NCBI RefSeq assembly: GCF_018128285.1
Contig: NZ_CP072380.1
Coordinates: 1,922,001-1,986,000, forward strand
Reading direction: 5' to 3'
From: Atopobium sp. oral taxon 416
GTDB taxonomy: Bacteria > Actinomycetota > Coriobacteriia > Coriobacteriales > Atopobiaceae
Length of the DNA: 64,000 nucleotides
Shown here: piece by piece, positions 9,481 through 28,221 of the stretch
How the letters are laid out: every line of letters begins with the position of its first letter
Position numbering within the stretch: position 1 is the stretch's first letter
Position numbers and translations under genes: made by a program
Notes under the pieces: generated by a model
Seen by the model: only the letters and a program-made list of their open reading frames with translations
Database searches by the model: none
Told to the model about the DNA's origin: nothing

Positions 9481-10350
9481 ATGAGGATCGACACTATTCT
9501 CGCGCGCAAACAGACCTATTCCTACGAGATCTTCCCTCCCCGGGGTGAGCTGCCCTTGCAGCAGGCTAAGGAGATCGCAGGTGAGCTGGCCCAAGACCAT
9601 CCTGATTGGATCTCCACCACCTTCTCCGCTGGTGGTCACGGCAACTCACAGAATGTCGCCGCGATCTGTGCACAGACCCAAAATGAGCTCGGCGTCACCG
9701 CTCTGGCACACCTCACCTGCATGGGGTCCACCAAGGAGGACGTTGACTACTACCTGGATACCCTCGAGCATGACGGGATCCAGAACGTCCTTGCACTGCG
9801 CGGAGACAAGACTGCGGGCAAAGAGCCTAAGGACTTCCGCTACGCTTCAGACCTGATCGCCTACATTAAGGAGCACCACCCCAGCCTATGCTGTGGGGCC
9901 GCCTGTTATCCGGAGGGCCACATCGAGACCAAGAATATAAAGGAGTCGATGGAGGTCATGAAGTACAAGCAGGATGCCGGGGCGGATTTCTTTGTGACCC
10001 AGCTCTTCTTCGACAATGAGTACTTCTACCGATTCCGCGAGAGCTGCGCCAGAAGCCGCATCAAGCGCCCGATCGTCGTCGGGATCATGCCGTTCACCTC
10101 ACAGAAGCAGATCCAACGCATAGCGTTCACCTGCGGGGCTTCGATCCCCTCGGCGGTGATCAAGCGCATCATTGCGGCCGGAGACGATAGAGACAAACAG
10201 GCGCAGGCCGGCCTGGAATATGCAATCGAGCAGCTCCAGGACCTCGCCCAAAACGGGGTCGATGGGCTACATATCTATACCATGAACAAACTGCAGGTGG
10301 CACACCAGATCCATTCAGCACTAAAGGAGTGTGGTTACCTTGCCGCATGA
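9481..10350 (+). CDS. metF: methylenetetrahydrofolate reductase
   Basis: Reduces 5,10-methylene-tetrahydrofolate to 5-methyl-tetrahydrofolate, the methyl donor of methionine synthase; a flavoprotein TIM barrel. Seen: 289 residues, SYEIFPPRG at the N-terminus with the catalytic glutamate, NVLALRGDK, a CYPEGHIE block and QLFFDNEYFY. The ATG at 9481 follows AAAGGGAGAGTC; the ORF is open 15 codons upstream but without a better site. It heads an overlapping three-gene cluster with the two parts of MetH, so enzyme and methyl donor are made together. Confidence 0.95.
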   Translation: MRIDTILARKQTYSYEIFPPRGELPLQQAKEIAGELAQDHPDWISTTFSAGGHGNSQNVAAICAQTQNELGVTALAHLTCMGSTKEDVDYYLDTLEHDGIQNVLALRGDKTAGKEPKDFRYASDLIAYIKEHHPSLCCGAACYPEGHIETKNIKESMEVMKYKQDAGADFFVTQLFFDNEYFYRFRESCARSRIKRPIVVGIMPFTSQKQIQRIAFTCGASIPSAVIKRIIAAGDDRDKQAQAGLEYAIEQLQDLAQNGVDGLHIYTMNKLQVAHQIHSALKECGYLAA

Positions 10351-11059
10351 GCACGCCGTCTTACATTTTGAAAGCCCTACGATTGAGCGCTCAGAGGTTC
10401 TGCGCTATATGGGCTATCACGGACAGAAATACAGCGACGAAATCAGCCAGGACCTCGAGACACAGATACAGGCTGCCAGAGATATCTCGAAGCCTGCCGC
10501 GGTTGCCGACATCTTCGATGTGGGCACAATCACTGAGGATCCCAACCCTCAGGTCACCCTTAAAGACACCTCACTGGTTCTTAAGGGCAAAGGCATTGTC
10601 AAACATCTGAAAGACGCCAAACAGGTCGGTGTCTTCGCCGCGACCCTGGGCATGACTGACGAGCGAGAACTGAGGCGGTTGGCGCTTACGAACAAACTCG
10701 GACAGATCTTCTTCGACGCAGCTTCAACCGCCCTGATCGAGCGGGTATGTGACGAGGTGGAAGCCCACTATGTGAGCTATGGCGCTGAGCACCACCTTTA
10801 CACCAATTGGCGCTTCTCGCCGGGCTACGGGGATCTACCCCTCGCAACGCAGCCGACGCTGCTGGCGGCCTTGAACGCCCAGAGCCGTATCGGTATCAGC
10901 CTCTCGCCGTCGCTCTTGATGACCCCGACCAAGAGTGTGACCGCGATCATCGGCTTCTTCACCGAGCCGCAGCGCTCCTCACATCTCACCTGTGCAGGCT
11001 GCGTCTGCCGTGACTTCTGCAGCCTGAGAGAGCGTGGGGTGACCTGCTATGGGAGGTAA
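10331..11059 (+). CDS. vitamin B12-dependent methionine synthase, activation domain as a separate protein
   Basis: Corresponds to the C-terminal AdoMet-binding domain of MetH, which lets the oxidised cob(II)alamin cofactor be reductively re-methylated. Seen: 242 residues with the block RFSPGYGDLPL, followed by IGISLSPSLLMTPTKSVTAIIGF, both typical of this domain, and a cysteine-rich end CAGCVCRDFCSLRERGVTC. It starts inside metF (GTG 10331, or TTG 10340 at a better distance from AAAGGAG) and its end overlaps metH by 11 bases. The split arrangement, with the activation domain apart from the catalytic part, is known in several anaerobic lineages. Confidence 0.9.
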   Translation: MVTLPHEHAVLHFESPTIERSEVLRYMGYHGQKYSDEISQDLETQIQAARDISKPAAVADIFDVGTITEDPNPQVTLKDTSLVLKGKGIVKHLKDAKQVGVFAATLGMTDERELRRLALTNKLGQIFFDAASTALIERVCDEVEAHYVSYGAEHHLYTNWRFSPGYGDLPLATQPTLLAALNAQSRIGISLSPSLLMTPTKSVTAIIGFFTEPQRSSHLTCAGCVCRDFCSLRERGVTCYGR

Positions 11060-13520
11060 GACTGTAGAGACGCTCTACCCAGTAGGCGTGAAACGTCCCT
11101 TAAAGATCAAAGATTCGAATCTCCAAGAAGTGCTCGAAGGCAAGCGTTTTCTGCTCGTCGACGGCGCAATGGGTACCTCCTTGCAAGCCCACGGAATGCC
11201 TGCCGGCGCCATCCCAGAACTCTTCAACCTCACCGATCCCGATACGATCACATCCATTCACACAAGCTTTGTAGAAGCCGGTGCAGAGGTGATCACCACT
11301 AACACTTTTGGAGCTAACGCCCAAAAACTTGCCGGGCGGGCAAGCGTTCGGGAAGTCTTCCAGGCTGCAGTAGCCTGCGCCCAAAAAAGCGGGGCACACT
11401 ACATCGCCGCGGATATCGGCCCAATCGGTTCCCTGTTAGAGCCAATGGGAGCGATGAAATTCGAGGAGGCCTACGACCTCTTCACAGAGGAAGTCCGAGC
11501 TGCAACCGACGCAGGTGCAAACCTTATCCTGATTGAGACCATGGCTGATTTGAAGGAAGCCAAATCAGCGCTTTTGGCTGCCAAAGAGAACTCTGACCTG
11601 CCTGTGTTGGTGACCATGACGTTCGAAGAGGACGGCAGAACCTTCCTGGGAACCACCCCGGAAGTCGCTGCTGTAACCCTGCAGGCCCTCGGCGCCAATG
11701 CGGTCGGCATCAACTGCTCGCTCGGACCCGCGAAGACCGCAGGGCTTTTGGATCAAATGATCCCCTATCTCGACGCACCGGTCATGGTGCAACCCAACGC
11801 TGGCCTGCCCACGGTCAAAGATGGTAAGACCACCTACGATGTGGATGCGGCTACCTTTGCCCACGATATGGAGCAGATGGTCAAACACGGCGCCTCGATC
11901 ATCGGCGCTTGCTGCGGCTCCACCCCGGCATACACCGCGAAGGAGAGAGAGCTGCTCGAGCGCTACAAGAGCCCTCAACCTCATGAGCACAACCACGATC
12001 TGACGCTCGCGAGCGCCCAAACCCTGTTCTCTTTGCCGGAAGGCCATATCGGCGTGATCGGTGAGCGCATCAACCCCACCGGCAAGAAGAAGGTCAAGGC
12101 TGCCCTTCGGGACAACGAGCTCGACTATCTGCTCACCTTAGCGATCCAACAGGAGAAGGATGGGGCGCAGGTGCTCGATATCAACGTTGGGCTCCCCGAA
12201 GTCGACGAAGTGAAAACCCTCAAGTGTACCGTCGACGCGATAGGCACGGTCTCCTCGCTTCCAGTGCAGGTCGATTCCTCCAATTCTAAAGCGGTAGAGA
12301 CGGTGGTCCGCAGCTATGCGGGCAAGCCTCTGATCAACTCGACCAATGGCCGCAGGGACATTATGGATCAGGTAATCCCGATCGCCGCCCACTACGGCTG
12401 CGCATTGGTGTGCCTGACACTGGACGAAAATGGTATCCCCAACACCGTTGAGGGACGTTTAGCAATTGTCAATAAGATCTACAGGAGGGCCCAGGAGTAC
12501 CACATCCCGCCACAGGATCTCATGTTTGACTGCTTAGCTCTGGCCGCCTCGACCGACCAGAGCGCCCCCAGGACTATTCTGGACTCAATCCGCGCGATCA
12601 AGCAGGAGCTGCCAGGTGTGCGCACCGTGTTAGGTGTCTCCAACATCAGCTTCGGCCTTCCCTATCGTTCACTCATCAATGCTACCTTCCTGTCTGCCGC
12701 CTTTGCCGCAGGGCTCGACTTGGCAATCGTGAACCCGGGACAGCAGCGGATCCACGACGCAATCGACGCTTGGAGAGTCCTTTCCGGCGAAGATAGAGCG
12801 GCACAGCACTATTGCACAGTCAACGCTACGAGAACCGATGCAAAGCCACAGGCACAGACTGCTGCTTCCTCCCAAGAGAGCGCGGATATCGATGAGAGCG
12901 ATCCAGAGAAGGCTATCTACCAGTTGGTCCTGCAGGGCCGTGAAGGACCGATCCCGGAGCTGACCAAGAAATTGATCCAAGAGCATGACCCGCTCTATCC
13001 GATCGACCATGTCCTGATCCCCGCACTCAACGACGTAGGCGATCGCTTCGAGAGAGGCACGTTCTTCCTGCCACAGCTTATGGCATCCGCGCAGGCCGCC
13101 AAGGCGGGTTTCAACACAATCCGGGATTTCCAGCCCTCAAATAAGGCGCCCCTCAAGGGCAAAATCGTGCTCTGCACCGTCAAAGGCGACATCCACGATA
13201 TGGGCAAGAATATCCTGAAGATGCTGATGGAAAACTATGGCTACCAGGTGATCGATCTGGGACGTGATGTCGAACCGGAACAGGTTGTGGAGGCTGTCAA
13301 GAAAGACCACGTACAGCTCTGCGGGTTGTCGGCGCTCATGACGACAACGCTGCCAGCAATGAAAGAGACCATTGAGTTGCTCCACAAAGAGACGCCCTGG
13401 TGCAAGATTGTCGTCGGCGGTGCGGTGCTCAACGCTGAATATGCTAAGATGGTCGGTGCCGATTACTACGCCAAAGACGCGAACCAAGGAGTCAAGATCG
13501 CCGAGCAGGTGTTGGGATAG
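11049..13520 (+). CDS. metH: cobalamin-dependent methionine synthase, catalytic part (no activation domain)
   Basis: Transfers the methyl group of methyl-tetrahydrofolate through cobalamin to homocysteine. Seen in order: homocysteine S-methyltransferase domain (about 1-300; zinc ligands in GINCS and in GACCGSTP), pterin-binding domain (about 325-590; GERINPTGKK), the cobalamin cap helix region (about 620-710) and the Rossmann B12 domain (about 715-823) with DIHDMGKNIL, where the histidine is the lower axial ligand of cobalt. At 823 residues it lacks only the activation domain, which the overlapping upstream gene encodes. B12 is needed, fitting the cobalamin-riboswitch operon near 27 kb. Confidence 0.96.
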   Translation: MGGKTVETLYPVGVKRPLKIKDSNLQEVLEGKRFLLVDGAMGTSLQAHGMPAGAIPELFNLTDPDTITSIHTSFVEAGAEVITTNTFGANAQKLAGRASVREVFQAAVACAQKSGAHYIAADIGPIGSLLEPMGAMKFEEAYDLFTEEVRAATDAGANLILIETMADLKEAKSALLAAKENSDLPVLVTMTFEEDGRTFLGTTPEVAAVTLQALGANAVGINCSLGPAKTAGLLDQMIPYLDAPVMVQPNAGLPTVKDGKTTYDVDAATFAHDMEQMVKHGASIIGACCGSTPAYTAKERELLERYKSPQPHEHNHDLTLASAQTLFSLPEGHIGVIGERINPTGKKKVKAALRDNELDYLLTLAIQQEKDGAQVLDINVGLPEVDEVKTLKCTVDAIGTVSSLPVQVDSSNSKAVETVVRSYAGKPLINSTNGRRDIMDQVIPIAAHYGCALVCLTLDENGIPNTVEGRLAIVNKIYRRAQEYHIPPQDLMFDCLALAASTDQSAPRTILDSIRAIKQELPGVRTVLGVSNISFGLPYRSLINATFLSAAFAAGLDLAIVNPGQQRIHDAIDAWRVLSGEDRAAQHYCTVNATRTDAKPQAQTAASSQESADIDESDPEKAIYQLVLQGREGPIPELTKKLIQEHDPLYPIDHVLIPALNDVGDRFERGTFFLPQLMASAQAAKAGFNTIRDFQPSNKAPLKGKIVLCTVKGDIHDMGKNILKMLMENYGYQVIDLGRDVEPEQVVEAVKKDHVQLCGLSALMTTTLPAMKETIELLHKETPWCKIVVGGAVLNAEYAKMVGADYYAKDANQGVKIAEQVLG

Positions 13521-19978: not shown

Positions 19979-20662
19979 CTAGAACCGCACGAGTACCCTT
20001 CTTAACGAGCGTCCCCAGGGGATCCAGATCAGAAGCAGAAACCCCGCAGTCGCAATCCCATGCACAATATCGAACGGGATCCCCGCCGCGAAGGCAATTC
20101 CTGCGGTGGCCCAAGTCAGCGGCCGCACATACCCCAGTATGTACCACCCGTTGAGGATGAGCCCAAAGAGCAATCCGGAGAGAAAGCCCGCTATCGCCAA
20201 CTGCCAGCGCTTGTCCAGCAGATGGTGTGCAGCTAATACCCCTGCTATATACCCGATTAAGCCCCAGGCATACATCTGTAGCGGCGTCCATGCTCCCTGT
20301 CCGAAGAACATGTTTGAGACCAAAGCGGCGAGCGCTCCGGTCACAAAGCCATAGCAAGGGCCCAAGCAGGCTCCGGCGAGAATAGCGATAGCGGAGACAG
20401 GCTTCACATCGGGGATCGCTGCAAAGAGGATCCTCCCTGCCGCGGCAAGTGCCCCCAGGCAGACCGTCGGCATAATCTGCCGCAGGGTAGGCCGCTCTCG
20501 CTCCACTTCCTCAAAGAGGAAGCCGCAGCAGACGAGCGCCGCAAGCAGGGTGAGCCCACCCGTGAAGTCGCTTGAGGAGAGCGCTGATATTGCCATCACA
20601 ATCGGAACCAGCAAGAGGATCGGCAGTTCGAGGTGATGGAGGATACGCTGCGCTTTCGTCAC
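19979..20662 (-). CDS. ECF transporter S component, probably for a corrinoid
   Basis: Membrane substrate-binding subunit of an energy-coupling-factor transporter. Seen: 227 residues with about six hydrophobic spans, including the ECF-S-like stretch KPVSAIAILAGACLGPCYGF and the block ALVSNMFFGQGAWTP. The start is a GTG at 20662 behind GGAGG, overlapping the stop of the ATPase gene by four bases (GTGA); an upstream TTG is less likely. It is the last gene of the operon whose leader holds a cobalamin riboswitch, so cobalamin or a precursor is the likely cargo; the sequence alone does not prove the substrate. Confidence 0.85.
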   Translation of the reverse strand: MTKAQRILHHLELPILLLVPIVMAISALSSSDFTGGLTLLAALVCCGFLFEEVERERPTLRQIMPTVCLGALAAAGRILFAAIPDVKPVSAIAILAGACLGPCYGFVTGALAALVSNMFFGQGAWTPLQMYAWGLIGYIAGVLAAHHLLDKRWQLAIAGFLSGLLFGLILNGWYILGYVRPLTWATAGIAFAAGIPFDIVHGIATAGFLLLIWIPWGRSLRRVLVRF

Positions 20663-22113
20663 GATGTCTGCCTCCAAACCCAACTGTGCGCCAAGAACTC
20701 TTTAGTGGGTTGCGTCACCGTAATCCCCTTGTCAAAGACTAAGGATACCGAAGTGGCGAGTACCGCGACCAGCCCCACATCGTGGGTGGCCACCACAATC
20801 GTCGCGCCACCTAACTGCGCATGGTGCAGCGCTTCCATCACCGCAAAGCGCGCCTGTCGGTCCAATCCTTTGGTCGGCTCATCGAGCAGCACGAGTGCGG
20901 GTTGGGTCAGCAGCAGCTTCGCCAATCCCAAGAGTTCCTGCTGCCCACCTGATAGGTCAAAGGGGTGACGGGCAAGGAATGCGGGACCACTGGGCAGCCT
21001 GAGTTGCTTCAACATTGTGATCGCATCGTCCTTCTCATACCCGACAGTCTGAGCCCACTCCATCAGCTCTTCCTCCACACTCTCATGGGTGAAGAGTGCC
21101 TGAGGATTCTGTGGGAGAAGTACCTGCGAGCCTGAACAGGCATTGCTGATTTTGCCCCGCTGCCCTTTCTCCATTCCCGCGATCAGTTTCAGGAGTGTGG
21201 ACTTACCGGATCCGTTACCACCGACTAATGCACGGATCTCCTGCTTTGACACCTCAAGGCTTGCGTCTCTGATCACCCAGGGAGCAGTGCGGGAATAACG
21301 GAAGGAGAGATCTTTCACGGTCACAACTGGCTCATCCGATACCGGAGCGGGCTTATAGGGTTGGGGTTGCGGCAGCTGACTCAGATAGGTTTGCTCTTCC
21401 GCTTTACTGAGCTCACGCACACCTGCGACACGCCGATCGTTTTGCTCGAGCATAAAGAAGGTATCCGCATAGGGCACAAAGGGCTCCGGATCGTGGGTTG
21501 CCACAACCACGGTGATCCCCAACTCCTGGTTCATGCGATAGAGTAGGGAGATAAAGGTCTGCCGTGCCAGCGGATCAAGCGCGCTTGTCGCCTCATCCAA
21601 CAGCAGCAGCTTCGGATGCATCACCATGAGCGCCGCCAAAGTCAGGATCTGTTTCTGTCCTCCGGAAAGTTCACTCGTCTTCTTGTGGAACCAGGGCTCA
21701 ATTCCAAAGAAATAGCAGGCCTCAGCGATACGCTGGTGCATCTGCGTCTGTTCGAGCCCTAAGTTCTCAAGCCCAAAGGCAAGCTCGTGCCACACCGTGT
21801 CACACACGATCTGATTCTCGGGATTTTGGAAGACGTAGCCGACGAGCTGCACACTTTCCCGTTCGGTGATCGTCGACTGTTCCTGCCCAAACAGGGTGAT
21901 GGTACCCTGCTGGATCCCCTTCGGTTTGAGTTCTGGTTTTATCAACCTCAGAAGGGTTGTCTTACCTGACCCTGTTGAGCCCTGAAGCACACAGAAGGCT
22001 CCAGTCTCTACACTAAACAAAACGCGATCCAAGACCGGCTGGGTGGGTCTATCCTCGTCGATCGCGGGATAGGAAAACGATAGATTGTCTACGCGGAGTG
22101 CTTCGTCATGCAT
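20659..22113 (-). CDS. ECF transporter ATPase, two ABC domains fused (EcfA1-EcfA2 in one chain)
   Basis: ATP-hydrolysing subunit that powers the ECF transporter at the cytoplasmic face. Seen: two complete ABC domains in 484 residues. First: Walker A GSTGSGKT (45-52), signature LSGGQ (149-153), Walker B LLLLDEATS. Second: Walker A GGNGSGKS (298-305), signature LSGGQ (387-391), Walker B LVLLDEPTKGLD. Most ECF systems use two separate ATPases; here both are one polypeptide. ATG 22113 lies nine bases after GGAGAG and overlaps the ecfT end by eight bases. Confidence 0.93.
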   Translation of the reverse strand: MHDEALRVDNLSFSYPAIDEDRPTQPVLDRVLFSVETGAFCVLQGSTGSGKTTLLRLIKPELKPKGIQQGTITLFGQEQSTITERESVQLVGYVFQNPENQIVCDTVWHELAFGLENLGLEQTQMHQRIAEACYFFGIEPWFHKKTSELSGGQKQILTLAALMVMHPKLLLLDEATSALDPLARQTFISLLYRMNQELGITVVVATHDPEPFVPYADTFFMLEQNDRRVAGVRELSKAEEQTYLSQLPQPQPYKPAPVSDEPVVTVKDLSFRYSRTAPWVIRDASLEVSKQEIRALVGGNGSGKSTLLKLIAGMEKGQRGKISNACSGSQVLLPQNPQALFTHESVEEELMEWAQTVGYEKDDAITMLKQLRLPSGPAFLARHPFDLSGGQQELLGLAKLLLTQPALVLLDEPTKGLDRQARFAVMEALHHAQLGGATIVVATHDVGLVAVLATSVSLVFDKGITVTQPTKEFLAHSWVWRQTS

Positions 22114-22990
22114 TGCGTACATCTCTCCAAGCGTATGCATCAATGGCAACCGGTATCAAAGGGAATAAGCATAGAATCAGGTACGGCACATACCCCCACC
22201 ACAGGCGCAGCTGTGGCATCACCGGATAGAACTCCCATGGACCCACTGCGGCAACCGCGCAGATCGCATTGAGAATCCCAAAGATGATCACCACAGCTAT
22301 GCAGGCCGCATCCCGATCCGTGAAGCGCCAATTGTGGTAGCTGCTTCTGGTATCAGCGATACCCCAGCCCCGAGCGCGCATCGCATCGGAGCGCTCGAGG
22401 GAATCTTCCAGCGACCAGCTCAAGAGAATACCACCAGCGAGCACCTGGGCCCGCTTTCGGGAAGGATGGTGGGCATGGGAGGCGCTGCAGGCATCAGAGA
22501 GCCCGACCGCCAGACGGAACCGACGGCAGAGCTGGGGAACCAGCTGCAAGACAACTGTAAGCATCGTCGTGAGGGTCGGAAATCGTTTGCCAAAGACCTC
22601 CATCAGAGCATCTTCACGCACCAGCGTAGCTCCGATCTCAAGCCAGAGCATCACGGCGACCAGCGCACACCCCATCGTAATCCCGTAGCACAAGCTCTCA
22701 AGAGTGATACGTATCGGTCCAGCACTCACCAGAACAGTGGTCCCCAACTGTGTGATCAGCGCATTGAACAGCGCAATTATACAGATGAGGGGGATCTGCC
22801 AGGACAGCCGGGCCCCGGTTCTCCTGAATCCCTTAAGCGTGCCATGAACGATGCAGCCGCTCGCCAGCGAGATCGCCACATAGACCGGCTGCATCACGAA
22901 CATCGTGAAGCAAAGCATCACGACCGTATAGAGGAGCAACACGGTGGGGTGAATTGTCTCAAGACTCTGTTGGACACCGTTCGATTCCAT
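22106..22990 (-). CDS. ecfT: ECF transporter transmembrane T component (CbiQ/EcfT family)
   Basis: Integral membrane scaffold linking the S component and the ATPases. Seen: 294 residues, five to seven hydrophobic spans, and near the C-terminal third a cytoplasmic stretch with EDSLERSDAMRARGWG, which contains the conserved A-R-G coupling motif of EcfT (AMRARGWG). The ATG at 22990 follows the upstream stop by 23 bases; a GTG at 23041 would overlap that gene and add 17 residues that do not look like EcfT. It is coupled to the ATPase gene by overlap. Confidence 0.9.
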   Translation of the reverse strand: MESNGVQQSLETIHPTVLLLYTVVMLCFTMFVMQPVYVAISLASGCIVHGTLKGFRRTGARLSWQIPLICIIALFNALITQLGTTVLVSAGPIRITLESLCYGITMGCALVAVMLWLEIGATLVREDALMEVFGKRFPTLTTMLTVVLQLVPQLCRRFRLAVGLSDACSASHAHHPSRKRAQVLAGGILLSWSLEDSLERSDAMRARGWGIADTRSSYHNWRFTDRDAACIAVVIIFGILNAICAVAAVGPWEFYPVMPQLRLWWGYVPYLILCLFPLIPVAIDAYAWRDVRNA

Positions 22991-23013
22991 ACGTATCTGC
23001 TGAATTCCCCCCC

Positions 23014-24240
23014 CTACTGATACGCTTCCACAAAGGTCCACACGACTTGATCGCCGTCGTGCAGAGTATAGCCGCCGGAGCCTACATCCGGCTCAATCCC
23101 GTTCACACTGTAGACCCAACCGGTATGCTTACCGGCAGAGACACCGTTGATACCGGTAACATAGATCCCCATAGAGGTCATCTGGGACTGTACAGAGTTC
23201 CCACTCGCCTGCAGGGCATCCCACACGGTTGAACCCTCCGGGATTCGTACCGTGCGGCTCGTCGTACCTCCCCCACCGTATGAACCATCAACCTGGACAC
23301 TCACTGAAATGGTCCCGTCATTTTCTCCTGAGGAGGCATTTCCTCCATTATTTGAAGACCCTCCATTATTTGAAGAAGATGTCGTGCTTTGTGATTGCTG
23401 CGCCGAAGAGCCTCCGGTAAGCAGACTACCCCGCTCTGAGCTCTGAGAGCCGGTGCCAAAGGCATCTTGACTCCCTTGGCTCTGTCCGTTCTCAGAGGAG
23501 GTCCCATTTGTCTGTGCTTCGCTCTGCTGTGCCTCCGTCGTCTCGGCTTCTAAGTCTTCCTCATCCACGTCCGTGGTAACCGGAATTTCGGAGCCATCAG
23601 GCAGCGTGATCGTATGGCCTTTTTGCTGCGCGATTGAATCGTCGCTGAGCTCCTTATAAGTTGCCCCTGAGAAGGTATAGCTATCGCAAACATCAAGGAT
23701 ATCGTGCAGGTTGTCGGCAATCGTGTCAGCAAAAGTACCCTGCTCGATTGCAAAGCGGACCGTACCCTCAGCATTCTCCGCAATCCAGACCGCAGAGACC
23801 TGTCCACCTGCGCTGTCACTCAAAGCATTTGCGAGGCTCTGGGTACGTTGCGCAGTGAGGAGGGCCATCTTCTTGGCTTCATCCTCTTCATTCTGCTCAA
23901 TCCAGACTTTATTGTTGTCTATCGCAATCGTGACGCTGTCCGGATCAACTGAGACATCCTGTCCATTGACTGATAAATTCTGCAGCGCTGAGCGTACCTG
24001 ATCTTCAGTAACGCTCACCTGTTGTTGCTGCCCTGCCTGGGTAGGTTCAGTCGTCTCGAGTGAGGCACCGCCTTGACCTCGGGAGGCAAAGATGAAACCC
24101 ACCACTGAGGCTGCGATGATCACAATCGCCAGAATGATCAGTCCACGTTTGGGATGCGGATTTTGTTGGGGCTGCTTGTCAACCTTGTCGACGTCTTCAG
24201 GTTCCTGATTCGTGTTGTGAACTATATAGTCATTACTCAC
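23014..24240 (-). CDS. membrane-anchored DUF4430 (transcobalamin-like C-terminal domain) protein
   Basis: A 408-residue cell-surface protein. Seen: a cytoplasmic N-terminus, one transmembrane span (about 33-52), a first extracellular domain (about 75-210), a long Ser/Gln/Asn/Gly-rich linker (about 230-305) and a C-terminal DUF4430 domain (about 308-408) with VDGSYGGGGTTSRTVRIPEG, VTGINGVSAGKHTGWVY and GDQVVWTFV. DUF4430 is related to the C-terminal domain of eukaryotic transcobalamin and intrinsic factor, which helps hold B12. Starts with GTG overlapping the upstream stop by four bases (GTGA). Placed between another DUF4430 protein and an ECF transporter under a cobalamin riboswitch, it is probably a corrinoid-capture protein; that role is inferred. 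Confidence 0.85.
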   Translation of the reverse strand: MSNDYIVHNTNQEPEDVDKVDKQPQQNPHPKRGLIILAIVIIAASVVGFIFASRGQGGASLETTEPTQAGQQQQVSVTEDQVRSALQNLSVNGQDVSVDPDSVTIAIDNNKVWIEQNEEDEAKKMALLTAQRTQSLANALSDSAGGQVSAVWIAENAEGTVRFAIEQGTFADTIADNLHDILDVCDSYTFSGATYKELSDDSIAQQKGHTITLPDGSEIPVTTDVDEEDLEAETTEAQQSEAQTNGTSSENGQSQGSQDAFGTGSQSSERGSLLTGGSSAQQSQSTTSSSNNGGSSNNGGNASSGENDGTISVSVQVDGSYGGGGTTSRTVRIPEGSTVWDALQASGNSVQSQMTSMGIYVTGINGVSAGKHTGWVYSVNGIEPDVGSGGYTLHDGDQVVWTFVEAYQ

Positions 24241-26996
24241 GCATGAGTCCTTTTCTTATTTGAATTGTGGAATGCAGCAATCAGAATAATAACGCCTGCG
24301 ATAATCCCGATGATCGGGATCACAAAGCCCGGCAGAGACGAATTCTCGGAGCTGCTCACATCGCTGCCAGCGTTGTTACTCTCGCTATGGCCGTCAGCCT
24401 GTTGGCTGTTGCTAGTATTCCCATGCTGGCCGAGCAGGCTTCCGGAGGTTCCAGCGGAATCTTCTTTCTGATCGCTTGCCTGCTGTGTCTGCACAGGAGC
24501 TGCACTGGAAGAAGTCACGTTGGCATTACTGGCAGGAGATCCGATTGCAGCGGATGGAGCGCCAAAGAACACTCCACCTCCAAAGCCTCTGGGATTCTTC
24601 TGTACTAGGATGAAACCGTTACCCATAGGTGCCTGGCCATCATCTTGGTTCTCAGATCCACCAGCATTGTTGTTATTTCCACCCGGTTGTGAGTCGGTTG
24701 AGGAACCCGAATCAGTTGCATTCTGCTTCCACTGCGCATACAGCGTGGCACCGGAGGCAGGTAAGCTCTGTCCGAGCGGCGACTTACCCTCTTTATCAAA
24801 CGACCAACCAGTAAAGGTATATCCTTCACGGTGTGGAACGGGCAGATTTGCAATACAGTGGAGTTTTACACGGGCAATTGAGTCTATAGAGCTTCCATCC
24901 TGTGCGTCAAAGAAGACCAGCCCACTCGTTCCTCGCTTCAAGGCAAAGAGATAACCTGAATCATTTGTGTAATAGAGCGTGCCATCCTTACCCAACACTG
25001 GGGAAGCGGTACACCAATTCTGATAGATTTTGTCCTGAGGGACATAGAGCGTGGAGGAAGGACCGAGCATTCCCTCACGGTAATGGACAACATAGATACC
25101 TCCTGGGCGATAGTTGAGCGTCACATAGATGGAAAGATCTGAGCCGCTCTGTACCACGAGCGGAGTCGATTGGACCTCACCCTTCCCCACGTCGATCACC
25201 CGCACTGCGGAGGAAGCGTCTGCGGCATCGATAGCAGCTACAACGCCAGTTTGACCTCTAAGACCTCCCACAAAGACAACCGTCCCTGCAGCAACCGGAG
25301 AAGATGTGGACTTGTTCGCAAAGTGGACTGAGCGGACCTCAGAAAGTTTCCCCTTTTGTAGCTTGAGGATATGCAAGGTACCAGCAGTATCTGAGACCGC
25401 AAACGTATCATCGGAAACCTTGCCTATAGTGGAGTTGATTGAAGTACCTAAGGAGACCCGAGAAAGCTCCTTCCCGTCCTTCCCATCGAGCAGATACACA
25501 TTCCCAAGTTGGTCACCGATTATGAAGGTATCGTCGACATGTACGGCGCCGCACCAGTAGAACCGGTCGCGAGCGATCACTTTGTGCCAGCGATTTTCAC
25601 CGTTAAGGTCAGTGCTTACGAGAATGCCGGTCTCATCCTCACGACTTGAATAATCGATATCGCTGAAGGCTGTCAGAATACGTTTATTCCCAACGCTCAC
25701 AGAGCTCAGAGCTTGCAAGTTCTCGAAGCCATTCGGGCTCAATGTCCCTTTCGTATCAAGCCTCGGTGTACACCACGCAAGTTTTAAATCGTTAGCAGTA
25801 TAGGCACGAAGGCTGCCATCATCGAACGGAATTACGATAGATCCATCGACGTAGGCAGGACGGCAGAAATAGGAGTAGTGGTTCGCAATCTTGACGGATT
25901 GCTGCAGCTTTCCAGTCTTCTCATCAATTTTCATGAGGTTGCCATCCCCCACCATATAGATAGAGCCACCGGCAATGATCGGATCAGATGCGCCCATTCC
26001 TACATGGAAAGGCTTATCCCAAGCAGGTTTCACATCATCCGCGTCAGGAGCTGAATCCTCGACCACCGCTTGGCTGCTGCCGCCGTTCGCAAAGCCTCCC
26101 CAATCTGCTTTGACTGAAGAATCAGGCTTGGCTGTTGGGTCAACCTTGACCGGATTGTCTCCAAGGCTTCTGGCATCTGGTGTGCTCTCAACGCCGAAGG
26201 TAGAGTAGTACCAGACAATGGTGGTACCTTGCGAGAGATCTATTGAGGACATTCCCTCCTGGGATGGTTTCCCATCAAAGAAGAGCTGCCAATATTTGCC
26301 AGAATCATTGTCAAATTGGTATACCTTCCCGTCGAAGGGAGAAGTGATTGACTTGAGGAACGCCCCATAGGTACTGCTTTCTTGGATATCGGCAGTAAGC
26401 CCAGCTTTACCAAAGGTGATCTTGGTCAACTCTTCAGCAGTATGCGTCTTCCCATCGCTATATTCAACGCTCTGCGTCTGTAGCCAGTCCGTATCGTTTC
26501 CCACGGCGTCAGGACCGATCACTTCGATCGTGGCCGTGATTGGGTCTGTATCAGGGATATCTGCTGCGCTTTTTGGTGTTTCGGGTACCGTAGCTTGCTC
26601 AGGCGAGGTGTCCTGCGCCGTGCCAGTACCATTAGTTACTGCCTGTGCTTGTGAATCTGCTTGTACGGGATCACGTCGCACTTGCTCTGAAGATTCGACG
26701 TTTGAATCCTGTGCACTTGGCTGTGCAGTGTTCTTCGAACTGTCAGCGGCGTCGGCCTCAGTATGGCTCGGTTCAACTGTTGTCACATCCGAAGCTGCTT
26801 GGGACTTCGACGGCTTCGCAATGGAGCGCGATACGGGTTCGGTTGTTGCCACATCCGAAGCTGCTTGGGACTTCTGTGTATCTGTCTCAGCCAAAGCTGG
26901 TAATGGCACCATACTCAGACAAAGCGCTACGCTGACAATCCATGCAGTAACAGCCTGTCCCCGTCCCGGACGCCTGCTACCTACCCCCCGTTTCAT
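24237..26996 (-). CDS. large cell-surface protein: DUF4430, beta-propeller and InlB-type repeat
   Basis: First gene of the cobalamin-riboswitch operon, 919 residues. Domains in order: basic N-terminus and signal peptide ending ALA (about 36); low-complexity region with two copies of SKSQAASDV-like units; DUF4430/transcobalamin-like domain (about 155-265; TYGAFLKSI, KYWQLFFDG, TIVWYYSTFG); PQQ-like beta-propeller (about 320-720; repeated blades such as VYLLDGKDGKEL, YLFALKRG, TAGTLHILKLQ); one InlB/Flg_new-type unit (about 735-775; HREGYTFTGWSFD, GATLYAQWK); Ser/Asn/Gly linker; C-terminal span LPGFVIPIIGIIAGVIILI with a basic tail. No LPxTG sortase motif. ATG 26996 follows GGAGAAGAAGAC. Likely a membrane-tethered corrinoid-binding or carrier-docking protein. 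Confidence 0.85.
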   Translation of the reverse strand: MKRGVGSRRPGRGQAVTAWIVSVALCLSMVPLPALAETDTQKSQAASDVATTEPVSRSIAKPSKSQAASDVTTVEPSHTEADAADSSKNTAQPSAQDSNVESSEQVRRDPVQADSQAQAVTNGTGTAQDTSPEQATVPETPKSAADIPDTDPITATIEVIGPDAVGNDTDWLQTQSVEYSDGKTHTAEELTKITFGKAGLTADIQESSTYGAFLKSITSPFDGKVYQFDNDSGKYWQLFFDGKPSQEGMSSIDLSQGTTIVWYYSTFGVESTPDARSLGDNPVKVDPTAKPDSSVKADWGGFANGGSSQAVVEDSAPDADDVKPAWDKPFHVGMGASDPIIAGGSIYMVGDGNLMKIDEKTGKLQQSVKIANHYSYFCRPAYVDGSIVIPFDDGSLRAYTANDLKLAWCTPRLDTKGTLSPNGFENLQALSSVSVGNKRILTAFSDIDYSSREDETGILVSTDLNGENRWHKVIARDRFYWCGAVHVDDTFIIGDQLGNVYLLDGKDGKELSRVSLGTSINSTIGKVSDDTFAVSDTAGTLHILKLQKGKLSEVRSVHFANKSTSSPVAAGTVVFVGGLRGQTGVVAAIDAADASSAVRVIDVGKGEVQSTPLVVQSGSDLSIYVTLNYRPGGIYVVHYREGMLGPSSTLYVPQDKIYQNWCTASPVLGKDGTLYYTNDSGYLFALKRGTSGLVFFDAQDGSSIDSIARVKLHCIANLPVPHREGYTFTGWSFDKEGKSPLGQSLPASGATLYAQWKQNATDSGSSTDSQPGGNNNNAGGSENQDDGQAPMGNGFILVQKNPRGFGGGVFFGAPSAAIGSPASNANVTSSSAAPVQTQQASDQKEDSAGTSGSLLGQHGNTSNSQQADGHSESNNAGSDVSSSENSSLPGFVIPIIGIIAGVIILIAAFHNSNKKRTHA

Positions 26997-27119
26997 GTCT
27001 TCTTCTCCTTTCCCATCAAAGGAGAGAGGCATCACAGATACCTGGATGGCACCACTGTGCCCATCCCGCTACTTCCTGTGATAAGTCTCCTTCCCCCATG
27101 CCCGGTCAGATACAACTTA

Positions 27120-27345
27120 CAAACGCTGAGGCAGGTCTCCTGACTTAACAAGTAGAACTGAAAGCTTCAGTCCCCTGTTCAGACCCCTTCTCAGGCAGAT
27201 GCCCAATGGGATTGCGTCTGAACATAGCTCGCATCACAGTAGTGGCGGCTGTGTCGGATTCGCACCGGCTTCCCTTTTAATCACGTGCAGCGAGTGCACG
27301 TGAACCACAACGTCTCACGGTTTTTAACCCTCCAGTATAGAACAC
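27120..27345 (-). promoter_or_regulatory. cobalamin riboswitch
   Basis: On the minus strand, about 125 bases upstream of the surface-protein gene: the block GGGAAGCCGGTGCGAATCC, then ACAGCCGCCACTACTGTGA, and farther on AAGTCAGGAGACCTGCC. These are the conserved core and the B12-box elements of the cobalamin (AdoCbl) riboswitch, in the right order and spacing. Binding of cobalamin normally lowers expression of uptake genes. It controls the five-gene DUF4430-ECF operon. Confidence 0.95.
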
Positions 27346-27387: not shown

Positions 27388-28221
27388 TCACTTGGTATGG
27401 TCTGCCAGATATCCCACCTGGGGCAGCTGCTCCTTGTGGGCAAAGACCAAGATCAGGATACCGATAATGAAGATTGGAATGGAGAGACATTGCCCCATCG
27501 TGAGCCAGTCAGTACCCAACAGATACCCCAGCTGCGCATCGGGAAGACGGACAAACTCAATCAGGAAGCGGAAGATTCCATAGAGCAACATAAACGTACC
27601 GATAAAGGTACCCCGTGAACGTGGAGGACGCTTTCTGCTCAGGGCAAAGAGGACAATAAAGATAACGAGACCTTCGAGGATCGCTTCATAGAGTTGGGAG
27701 GGATGCCGGTAGACGTGGCCACCATTCTCAAACATCACACCCCAGGGCAGATCAGTCGGCTTACCCCAGAGCTCGCCGTTGATAAAGTTGGCGATACGAC
27801 CAAAGAAGATGCCGATCGGAGCACCGCACACCGCTATGTCCGTCATGCTCATCGTTGAGATATGCAAATGGTGGCAGACGATACCGCCACCGATGAGTGC
27901 TCCGACGAACCCCCCATGGAAACTCATGCCACCCTCAGAGAAGGCAAAGATCGAGGCAGGATGCGCCAGGTAGTAGCCTGCGCCGTAGAAAATTACATAG
28001 AAGAGGCGGGCCCCCAAGATCACGCCGAGCGCCGCGCCGATCATTATGGAGAGCAGATCGTCGTCGGTGATATTGAGCTTCCAGCGTTTGTTGAGGGAGC
28101 GGATCACCAGGTAGGCACAGATAAAGCCTGCAAGGTAGGCGATCCCGTACCAGCGAATCGAGAGTGGTCCGATCTGGATTGCGACCGGATCGAGATGTTG
28201 GTAGATGTCATTGAGCCACAT
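27388..28221 (-). CDS. lgt: prolipoprotein diacylglyceryl transferase
   Basis: Integral membrane enzyme that adds diacylglycerol from phosphatidylglycerol to the lipobox cysteine of prolipoproteins. Seen: 277 residues, about seven spans, IRWYGIAYL near the N-terminus, the conserved GMSFHGGFVGALIGG, and the Lgt signature GRIANFINGELWGKPTDLPW, followed by RHPSQLYEAILEG. All expected conserved residues of the family are present. It would modify the GLUG lipoprotein of this window. It is separated from the cobalamin operon by the riboswitch leader. Confidence 0.96.
   Translation of the reverse strand: MWLNDIYQHLDPVAIQIGPLSIRWYGIAYLAGFICAYLVIRSLNKRWKLNITDDDLLSIMIGAALGVILGARLFYVIFYGAGYYLAHPASIFAFSEGGMSFHGGFVGALIGGGIVCHHLHISTMSMTDIAVCGAPIGIFFGRIANFINGELWGKPTDLPWGVMFENGGHVYRHPSQLYEAILEGLVIFIVLFALSRKRPPRSRGTFIGTFMLLYGIFRFLIEFVRLPDAQLGYLLGTDWLTMGQCLSIPIFIIGILILVFAHKEQLPQVGYLADHTK

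Follow-up and report, generated by a model that had tools for sequence, protein, structure and literature searches.

A stretch of 64,000 nucleotides from the genome of Atopobium sp. oral taxon 416 (assembly GCF_018128285.1, contig NZ_CP072380.1, positions 1,922,001 to 1,986,000), here called the window, contains an operon of five genes behind a cobalamin riboswitch, which very probably acquires corrinoid (vitamin B12) under B12 feedback. The whole operon and its leader are on the minus strand of the window, and the genes lie where an earlier note, made from the sequence alone, had placed them. Behind the riboswitch the order is P1 and P2 (two surface proteins), then the EcfT, double EcfA and S components of an energy-coupling factor (ECF) transporter. 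Neighbouring frames overlap throughout the operon, as that note had said, when ORF (open reading frame) starts are taken as mechanical first start codons. Counted from the first letter of the window, the features are as follows.

27113..27324, minus strand: canonical cobalamin riboswitch aptamer that has both the B12 box and the peripheral P6 arm (RF00174, motif patterns)
26999..27030, minus strand: likely expression platform, a hairpin CTCTCCTTT/AAAGGAG over the P1 Shine-Dalgarno sequence (sequence and minimum-energy fold; putative switch)
24237..26996, minus strand: P1, secreted, with signal peptide, DUF4430, propeller, List_Bact_rpt and C-terminal membrane anchor (Pfam; signal peptide and anchor by eye)
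23014..24240, minus strand: P2, N-terminally anchored membrane protein with linker and C-terminal DUF4430 (Pfam, profile; anchor by eye)
22106..23041, minus strand: EcfT transmembrane component (profile against PDB)
20659..22149, minus strand: EcfA, fused double ATPase (two ABC_tran stretches, Pfam)
19979..20683, minus strand: S component, CbrT-like (cobalamin) (phmmer and profile against PDB)

The riboswitch at 27324-27113 matches RF00174 with 97 bits (gathering score 31.5, E 6e-23), over model positions 1-189 of 189, so that the riboswitch claimed earlier is present at full model length. No second cobalamin riboswitch was found by the RF00174 search in the single-contig genome of 3,004,013 bases. 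In a pattern test the leader has the peripheral motifs and the B12 box (AGYCMGGAGACC), which we take to be the 3' element with that consensus. A partly complementary loop lies downstream and is a candidate L5-L13 kissing partner, seen by eye only in the window leader. The large peripheral arm is presumably the one usual for adenosylcobalamin sensors; the natural ligand may perhaps be something other than adenosylcobalamin, as neither of the adenosyltransferase families PF01923 and PF02572 was found in the genome. The mechanical start gives P1 an ORF of 24237-27035, and the ATG at 26996 is the likelier start because AAGGAG sits 8 nt upstream of it. In the minimum-energy fold of the sequence downstream of the aptamer, a hairpin pairs this Shine-Dalgarno sequence with CTCTCCTTT, and ligand binding would favour the hairpin.

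The cargo of the transporter is predicted from its S component. As a single sequence searched against PDB with phmmer, S has a sole match, 6fnp_A (E 8.4e-9, about 165 residues), and a profile of 19 sequences finds the same chain at E 2.1e-12, together with one further, unrelated row at E 2.1. The 6FNP entry is ECF-CbrT of Lactobacillus delbrueckii, for which the published report describes cobalamin transport as demonstrated (PMC5997447). In Pfam, S matches ECF_trnsprt with 38.6 bits (cut-off 30.7); the competing matches are ECF-ribofla_trS in Pfam (28.9 bits, cut-off 26.7) and the folate-family TIGR04518 in NCBIfam (25.6 bits, cut-off 60). It is well supported by these comparisons that S is of the CbrT type, with cobalamin as its predicted cargo; a folate or riboflavin S component was considered and rejected, CbrT being the only meaningful PDB match. 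Pfam gave no match for EcfT, which was recognised by a profile that matches solved EcfT chains in PDB (5d3m_D, 4hzu_T and 4huq_T, E 2e-12 to 2.2e-11, 5d3m_D being the best). EcfA has two ABC_tran stretches in one protein and scores 272.9 bits against TIGR04520, below the equivalog cut-off of 315. S, T and two ATPases are thus encoded together as an ECF transporter with its own module, just as had been proposed.

Both surface proteins contain DUF4430 (PF14478, cut-off 23.8), P1 with 33.2 bits at about 26202-26381 and P2 with 56.1 bits at about 23029-23235. P1 also has a propeller of the BamB/PQQ type (PQQ_2/beta-propeller in Pfam, about 24921-25946) and a List_Bact_rpt, or InlB-type repeat (about 24732-24917, Pfam), so the three-part make-up claimed for it holds, as does the description of P2 as a second DUF4430 membrane protein. 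A search of the genome for DUF4430 found no matches beyond those of P1 and P2. Against PDB, a DUF4430 profile of 17 sequences matches 3u7z, a 'putative metal binding protein', at E 2e-5 and human transcobalamin-1 at E 2.1e-4, the latter bearing out the kinship with the transcobalamin C-terminal domain that had been suggested. Corrinoid capture by P1 and P2 is plausible. Two closer identifications were rejected: P1 is not a full transcobalamin, since neither P1 nor P2 of the window, nor P1 in five relatives, yielded an alpha/alpha toroid, and its propeller is not a homologue of BtuG, 3DSM being missing from the 58 PDB matches of the P1 profile (E up to 0.01). It is worth noting that P1 varies in length, from 932 amino acids in the window (mechanical start) up to 2173 in locus L050, and that the P1 proteins scanned in five relatives have one to three DUF4430 stretches each, with atrophied Ig domains in three.

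The genome also contains a use for B12. Two genes near the operon, on the opposite strand, are of interest.

11049..13520, plus strand: MetH, cobalamin-dependent methionine synthase (S-methyl_trans, Pterin_bind, two B12-binding domains)
10331..11059, plus strand: separate Met_synt_B12 activation-domain protein (PF02965, 32.5 bits, cut-off 25)

MetH lies 6.5 kb beyond the end of S. The reactivation domain was not detected in MetH itself (11049-13520), and the separate activation-domain protein adjoins it. Three B12-binding-domain matches were found in the genome, MetH included. CbiD was not found in the genome, and the cell is therefore probably unable to make corrinoid. These findings fit a B12 importer in a B12 auxotroph. 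A tRNA scan of the 64-kb window found none.

The operon is widespread among relatives. The family, Atopobiaceae going by the names of relatives, was represented by 140 genomes, and candidates were scored per genome up to 16 for RF00174 in the family, 19 for R2 (a model described below) in the family and 6 in a class-wide sample. An S component is present in 83 of the 140 family genomes, and the order P1-P2-T-A-S recurs across the 40 family loci fetched around S; the exceptions are that P1 or P2 is missing or undetected in some, and that extra genes lie between A and S in others. Loci were named for the best 80 of 506 confirmed loci, and the relatives among these are Olsenella, other Atopobiaceae, Collinsella, Gordonibacter, Slackia and Clostridia. 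The nearest S among the matches listed belong to two uncultured genomes, one named Olsenella, with 67-68% identity. In 70 of the named loci the stretch reaches 3.5 kb or more beyond S on its upstream side; 67 of these hold both T and A, and a purpose-built hidden Markov model detects a DUF4430 protein in 55. A leader of cobalamin type is found on the same strand within 16 kb upstream of S in 59 of the 83 family genomes, 9 of them canonical and 50 of a variant kind. In eight clostridial loci, selected by a match to R1 (a covariance model from seven canonical leaders), all eight reach the RF00174 threshold upstream on the operon strand; in one of the clostridial loci, L135, some 6 kb separate RF00174 from the first operon gene detected.

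Some loci depart from this arrangement. In L199 (1398-4876, genome G028) P1 and P2 lie behind a canonical riboswitch, and S is found on the same contig at a distance of over 800 kb. Seven loci of Collinsella (L101, L105, L108, L109, L119, L121) and Enorma (L110) have a CbrT-like S, T and A with no detected DUF4430 protein, and a propeller protein is detected in L105, L110, L119 and L121. Guanidine-III riboswitches lie 7-8 kb from the operon in two loci (L042:1118-1180 and L070:16174-16234).

The operon is thus most probably a corrinoid acquisition system under B12 feedback, the importer function proposed earlier being well supported by the riboswitch, the CbrT-like S, the nearby MetH and the failure to find CbiD. 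In the mechanism we propose, the riboswitch would sense intracellular corrinoid, an assignment made for the aptamer by homology, and when corrinoid is plentiful the hairpin would cover the Shine-Dalgarno sequence and shut the operon. P1 and P2 would be on the outer face of the membrane, where their transcobalamin-type SLBB (DUF4430) domains, perhaps with the P1 propeller, may bind corrinoid for transfer to the CbrT-like S. Uptake would, by homology, be powered by ATP hydrolysis through the operon's own EcfT and double EcfA, and the imported corrinoid would serve MetH in a cell that probably cannot make its own.

Several observations weigh against this interpretation. The DUF4430 profile is not significant on its own against transcobalamin-2 (0.054) or intrinsic factor (0.77), and Pfam found no alpha/alpha toroid in P1, P2 or the P1 of five relatives; in the animal carriers the toroid provides part of the B12 site, as described in PMC1796856. 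Of the 61 named loci with 7 kb or more upstream, just 35 have a detected propeller protein, and 15 of the 70 counted above have no detected DUF4430 protein, so the system does not strictly require its surface proteins. For 24 of the 83 family genomes the search upstream of S gave no leader (it is elsewhere or on another contig in 14, and none was found in 10). Finally, the genome has three FecCD permeases, which leaves room for a second, BtuC-type importer.

The best surviving alternative, which we nevertheless consider unlikely, is that the ECF transporter carries corrinoid and P1 and P2 do not bind it, their DUF4430 and propeller domains serving adhesion, wall anchoring or transporter assembly. 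The 15 loci lacking a detected DUF4430 protein speak for it, as do the missing toroid and the BamB/PQQ-type propeller, a scaffold fold with 3DSM not among its PDB matches; against it stand the profile match to transcobalamin-1, the persistence of P1 and P2 behind a cobalamin riboswitch in L199 though split from T, A and S, and the fact that the only DUF4430 domains found in the genome are in these two proteins. Somewhat less likely again is a B12-related cargo other than finished cobalamin, such as cobinamide, a different precursor of corrinoids or a lower-ligand base. Uptake of cobinamide by CbrT is part of its published description (PMC5997447), and neither of the two adenosyltransferase families tested was found, but CbiD was not found and MetH needs a complete corrinoid (cobU, cobS and cobT were not searched). 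That the transporter takes up an unrelated vitamin or metal, its place behind the riboswitch being incidental, is highly improbable: ECF S components are diverse, with ECF-ribofla_trS just above its Pfam cut-off and a weak folate-family match, but TIGR04518 is far below its cut-off, the PDB points to CbrT, and a cobalamin leader precedes the operon in relatives of two classes, going by name.

The leaders of the relatives require closer description. RF00174 is detected in 22 of the 140 family genomes, and upstream of S in 9. A regular-expression search for riboswitches missed the variant leaders, which were picked up by covariance models. Of the 33 other family loci fetched, 17 showed weak matches to R1 (E up to 1), all on the operon strand and near the first detected gene or within its mechanical start; a pattern search added more, and the aligned set is one conserved RNA. 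R2, the second model, was built from 20 variant leaders and finds 84 places in 83 of the 140 genomes, seven of these places being RF00174 matches too. The variant-only matches are 77 places in 76 of the family genomes: 50 are upstream of S, 18 in genomes with no S, 7 on another contig and 2 elsewhere. From the 27 variant places that are not upstream of S, 14 loci were fetched. R2 had been built without them and recognises every one, with E values of 1.6e-12 or better. Twelve of the 14 have CbiD on the leader's strand and downstream of it; the remaining two (L186 and L188) are on contigs of 3.8 and 7.9 kb. As an example, five proteins of L187 and three of L195 that follow the leader were assigned by Pfam to CbiK, a Peripla_BP_2 binding protein, FecCD with an ABC ATPase, CbiD, CbiG and three tetrapyrrole methylases. 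The variant therefore stands before both uptake and synthesis genes, which ties the operon to the corrinoid regulon. In the class-wide sample 68 of 396 genomes match, all of them from this family. Three examples among the 36 variants examined are given here.

L042:8177-8309: variant leader
L187:8443-8596: variant leader
L192:1411-1577: variant leader

The B12 box is missing in 36 of 36 variants and present in 10 of 10 leaders classed as canonical, of which nine are RF00174 matches and the tenth (L104) is matched by our own models only. In nine variant loci scanned with Rfam at E up to 10 (four of the uptake type, five of the synthesis type), no cobalamin family came up. All 36 variants have the L4 loop pattern TTYNACY, allowing one mismatch, as does one of the ten canonical leaders; we take it to resemble the tRNA T-loop. 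The variant retains helix P1, the L4 hairpin with its T-loop-like loop and a short P5, with P3 judged by eye. It is without the B12 box and nearly all of the peripheral P6 arm, and the loss of the L5 loop was judged by eye; remnants of the peripheral arm are found by pattern in 3 of the 36, with both parts in L044 alone. One locus (L054, a record also fetched as L116) has a canonical riboswitch whose P1 and P2 sequence is nearly as in the variants. The structure is supported by the variant alignment: 96.8% of cells are paired, against 36.5-50.8% in slid versions; 18 cells are changed on both sides, where shuffles average 7.0 and none of 500 reaches that figure; and the covariation score is 0.142 against 0.106 (0 of 500), the alignment having been fitted to the structure. 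The four pairs changed on both sides are not above shuffles (146 of 500 as high), and neither are further pair types (488 of 500). Together, these features suggest that the variant leader is a remodelled cobalamin riboswitch.

On the tree of S at least 2 of the 7 changes that the variant label requires are forced by well-supported branches, and two variants form a group with the canonical L054 (97/90); 13 of the 38 inner branches of this tree are open, and two long branches meet. From these label changes and the position of L054, the variant may have arisen more than once, or may have been exchanged. In one locus (L072:7546-7713, genome G133) a variant leader lies inside the operon, between the propeller gene and the DUF4430 gene. 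As to mechanism, a Shine-Dalgarno sequence was recognised by a simple rule in 31 of the variants (in five further leaders the rule recognised none), and in 25 of the 31 the folded downstream fragment has three or more Shine-Dalgarno bases paired to the 3' strand of helix P1, so that helix P1 and the sequestering hairpin would be alternatives. The longest helix between this strand and the downstream sequence is 6.78, against 5.54 with the downstream sequence shuffled (maximum 6.00 of 300) and 6.42 in a swap control with leaders exchanged between loci. This complementarity is weaker evidence than it appears: the shuffle control supports it, the swap control only slightly. In our judgement the evidence is evenly balanced as to whether the Atopobiaceae variant is a new riboswitch class on a cobalamin scaffold, with a changed ligand or binding mode and perhaps remodelled repeatedly, in which the 3' strand of helix P1 pairs with either its 5' strand or the Shine-Dalgarno region. 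No description of the variant leader was found in the literature searched, including the accessible text of PMC11260477, PMC9600662 and PMC10653944, most subscription papers being outside the search; its absence there does not prove that it is new.

About 60 nt upstream of the window riboswitch is a gene (27388-28221) that is presumably lgt. A relative of it is found in 19 of the 40 family loci with the uptake operon and, among the 14 variant loci away from that operon, in three (L192, L193 and L194, each with CbiD). Within one genus, g35, roughly 1 kb separates lgt from the leader downstream of it in the uptake locus L046 and the synthesis locus L194, and some 150 nt in the synthesis loci L192 and L193; the stretch of L048 (uptake) yielded no lgt, and in L072 (uptake) a propeller gene stands between lgt and the leader. 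Downstream of lgt, in a single genus, a similar variant leader thus heads either the uptake operon (L046) or CbiD-containing synthesis genes (L192, L193, L194). That a single site can hold B12 uptake genes in one case and B12 synthesis genes in another argues circumstantially for corrinoid supply by the window operon.

The protein architecture is not new, since it was predicted by Burroughs et al. in 2007 (PMC1796856), and the claim in the earlier note that such a capture system appears little studied was too strong. As set out in their main text, surface transcobalamin-like domains are predicted to scavenge B12 in bacteria that usually are without key B12 synthesis enzymes, and their operons share with the window the fusion to a beta-propeller, a second paralogue, a CbiO-like ATPase and a CbiQ-like permease. 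The word riboswitch does not occur in that main text; what goes beyond it here is the CbrT-like S, the riboswitch link, the spread through Coriobacteriia and the variant leader. A literature search combining DUF4430, cobalamin and ECF turned up only unrelated proteome work, and among papers on DUF4430, judged by titles and abstract openings, nothing on bacterial B12 uptake was found. The window S is homologous to that of ECF-CbrT (PMC5997447, 6FNP) and its EcfT is related too, 6fnp being among the matched entries. In L. delbrueckii, however, several S components are described as sharing one ECF module (PMC5997447), whereas the window has dedicated T, A and S together with surface proteins in one operon. 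BtuG of Bacteroides, described as a surface beta-propeller that captures B12 (PMC6143338), embodies an idea analogous to P1; it differs in partner (BtuB/BtuCDF as opposed to ECF) and in propeller type. Animal transcobalamin, haptocorrin and intrinsic factor have a C-terminal SLBB domain as in DUF4430, and differ in the N-terminal alpha/alpha toroid, which was not found here. As to RF00174, the window leader is a full member, unlike the relatives' variant.

What appears to be new is the shortened leader of the relatives, while the window itself adds an identified S component and a riboswitch. The window is a compact, testable case for the 2007 prediction of transcobalamin-like B12 scavenging, to which it links a CbrT-like S component and direct control by a B12 riboswitch, and it has a bearing on the competition for B12 among gut Actinobacteria. 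In the family, a leader that has no B12 box and still heads B12 operons could show a riboswitch changing its ligand or mechanism while keeping its genes.

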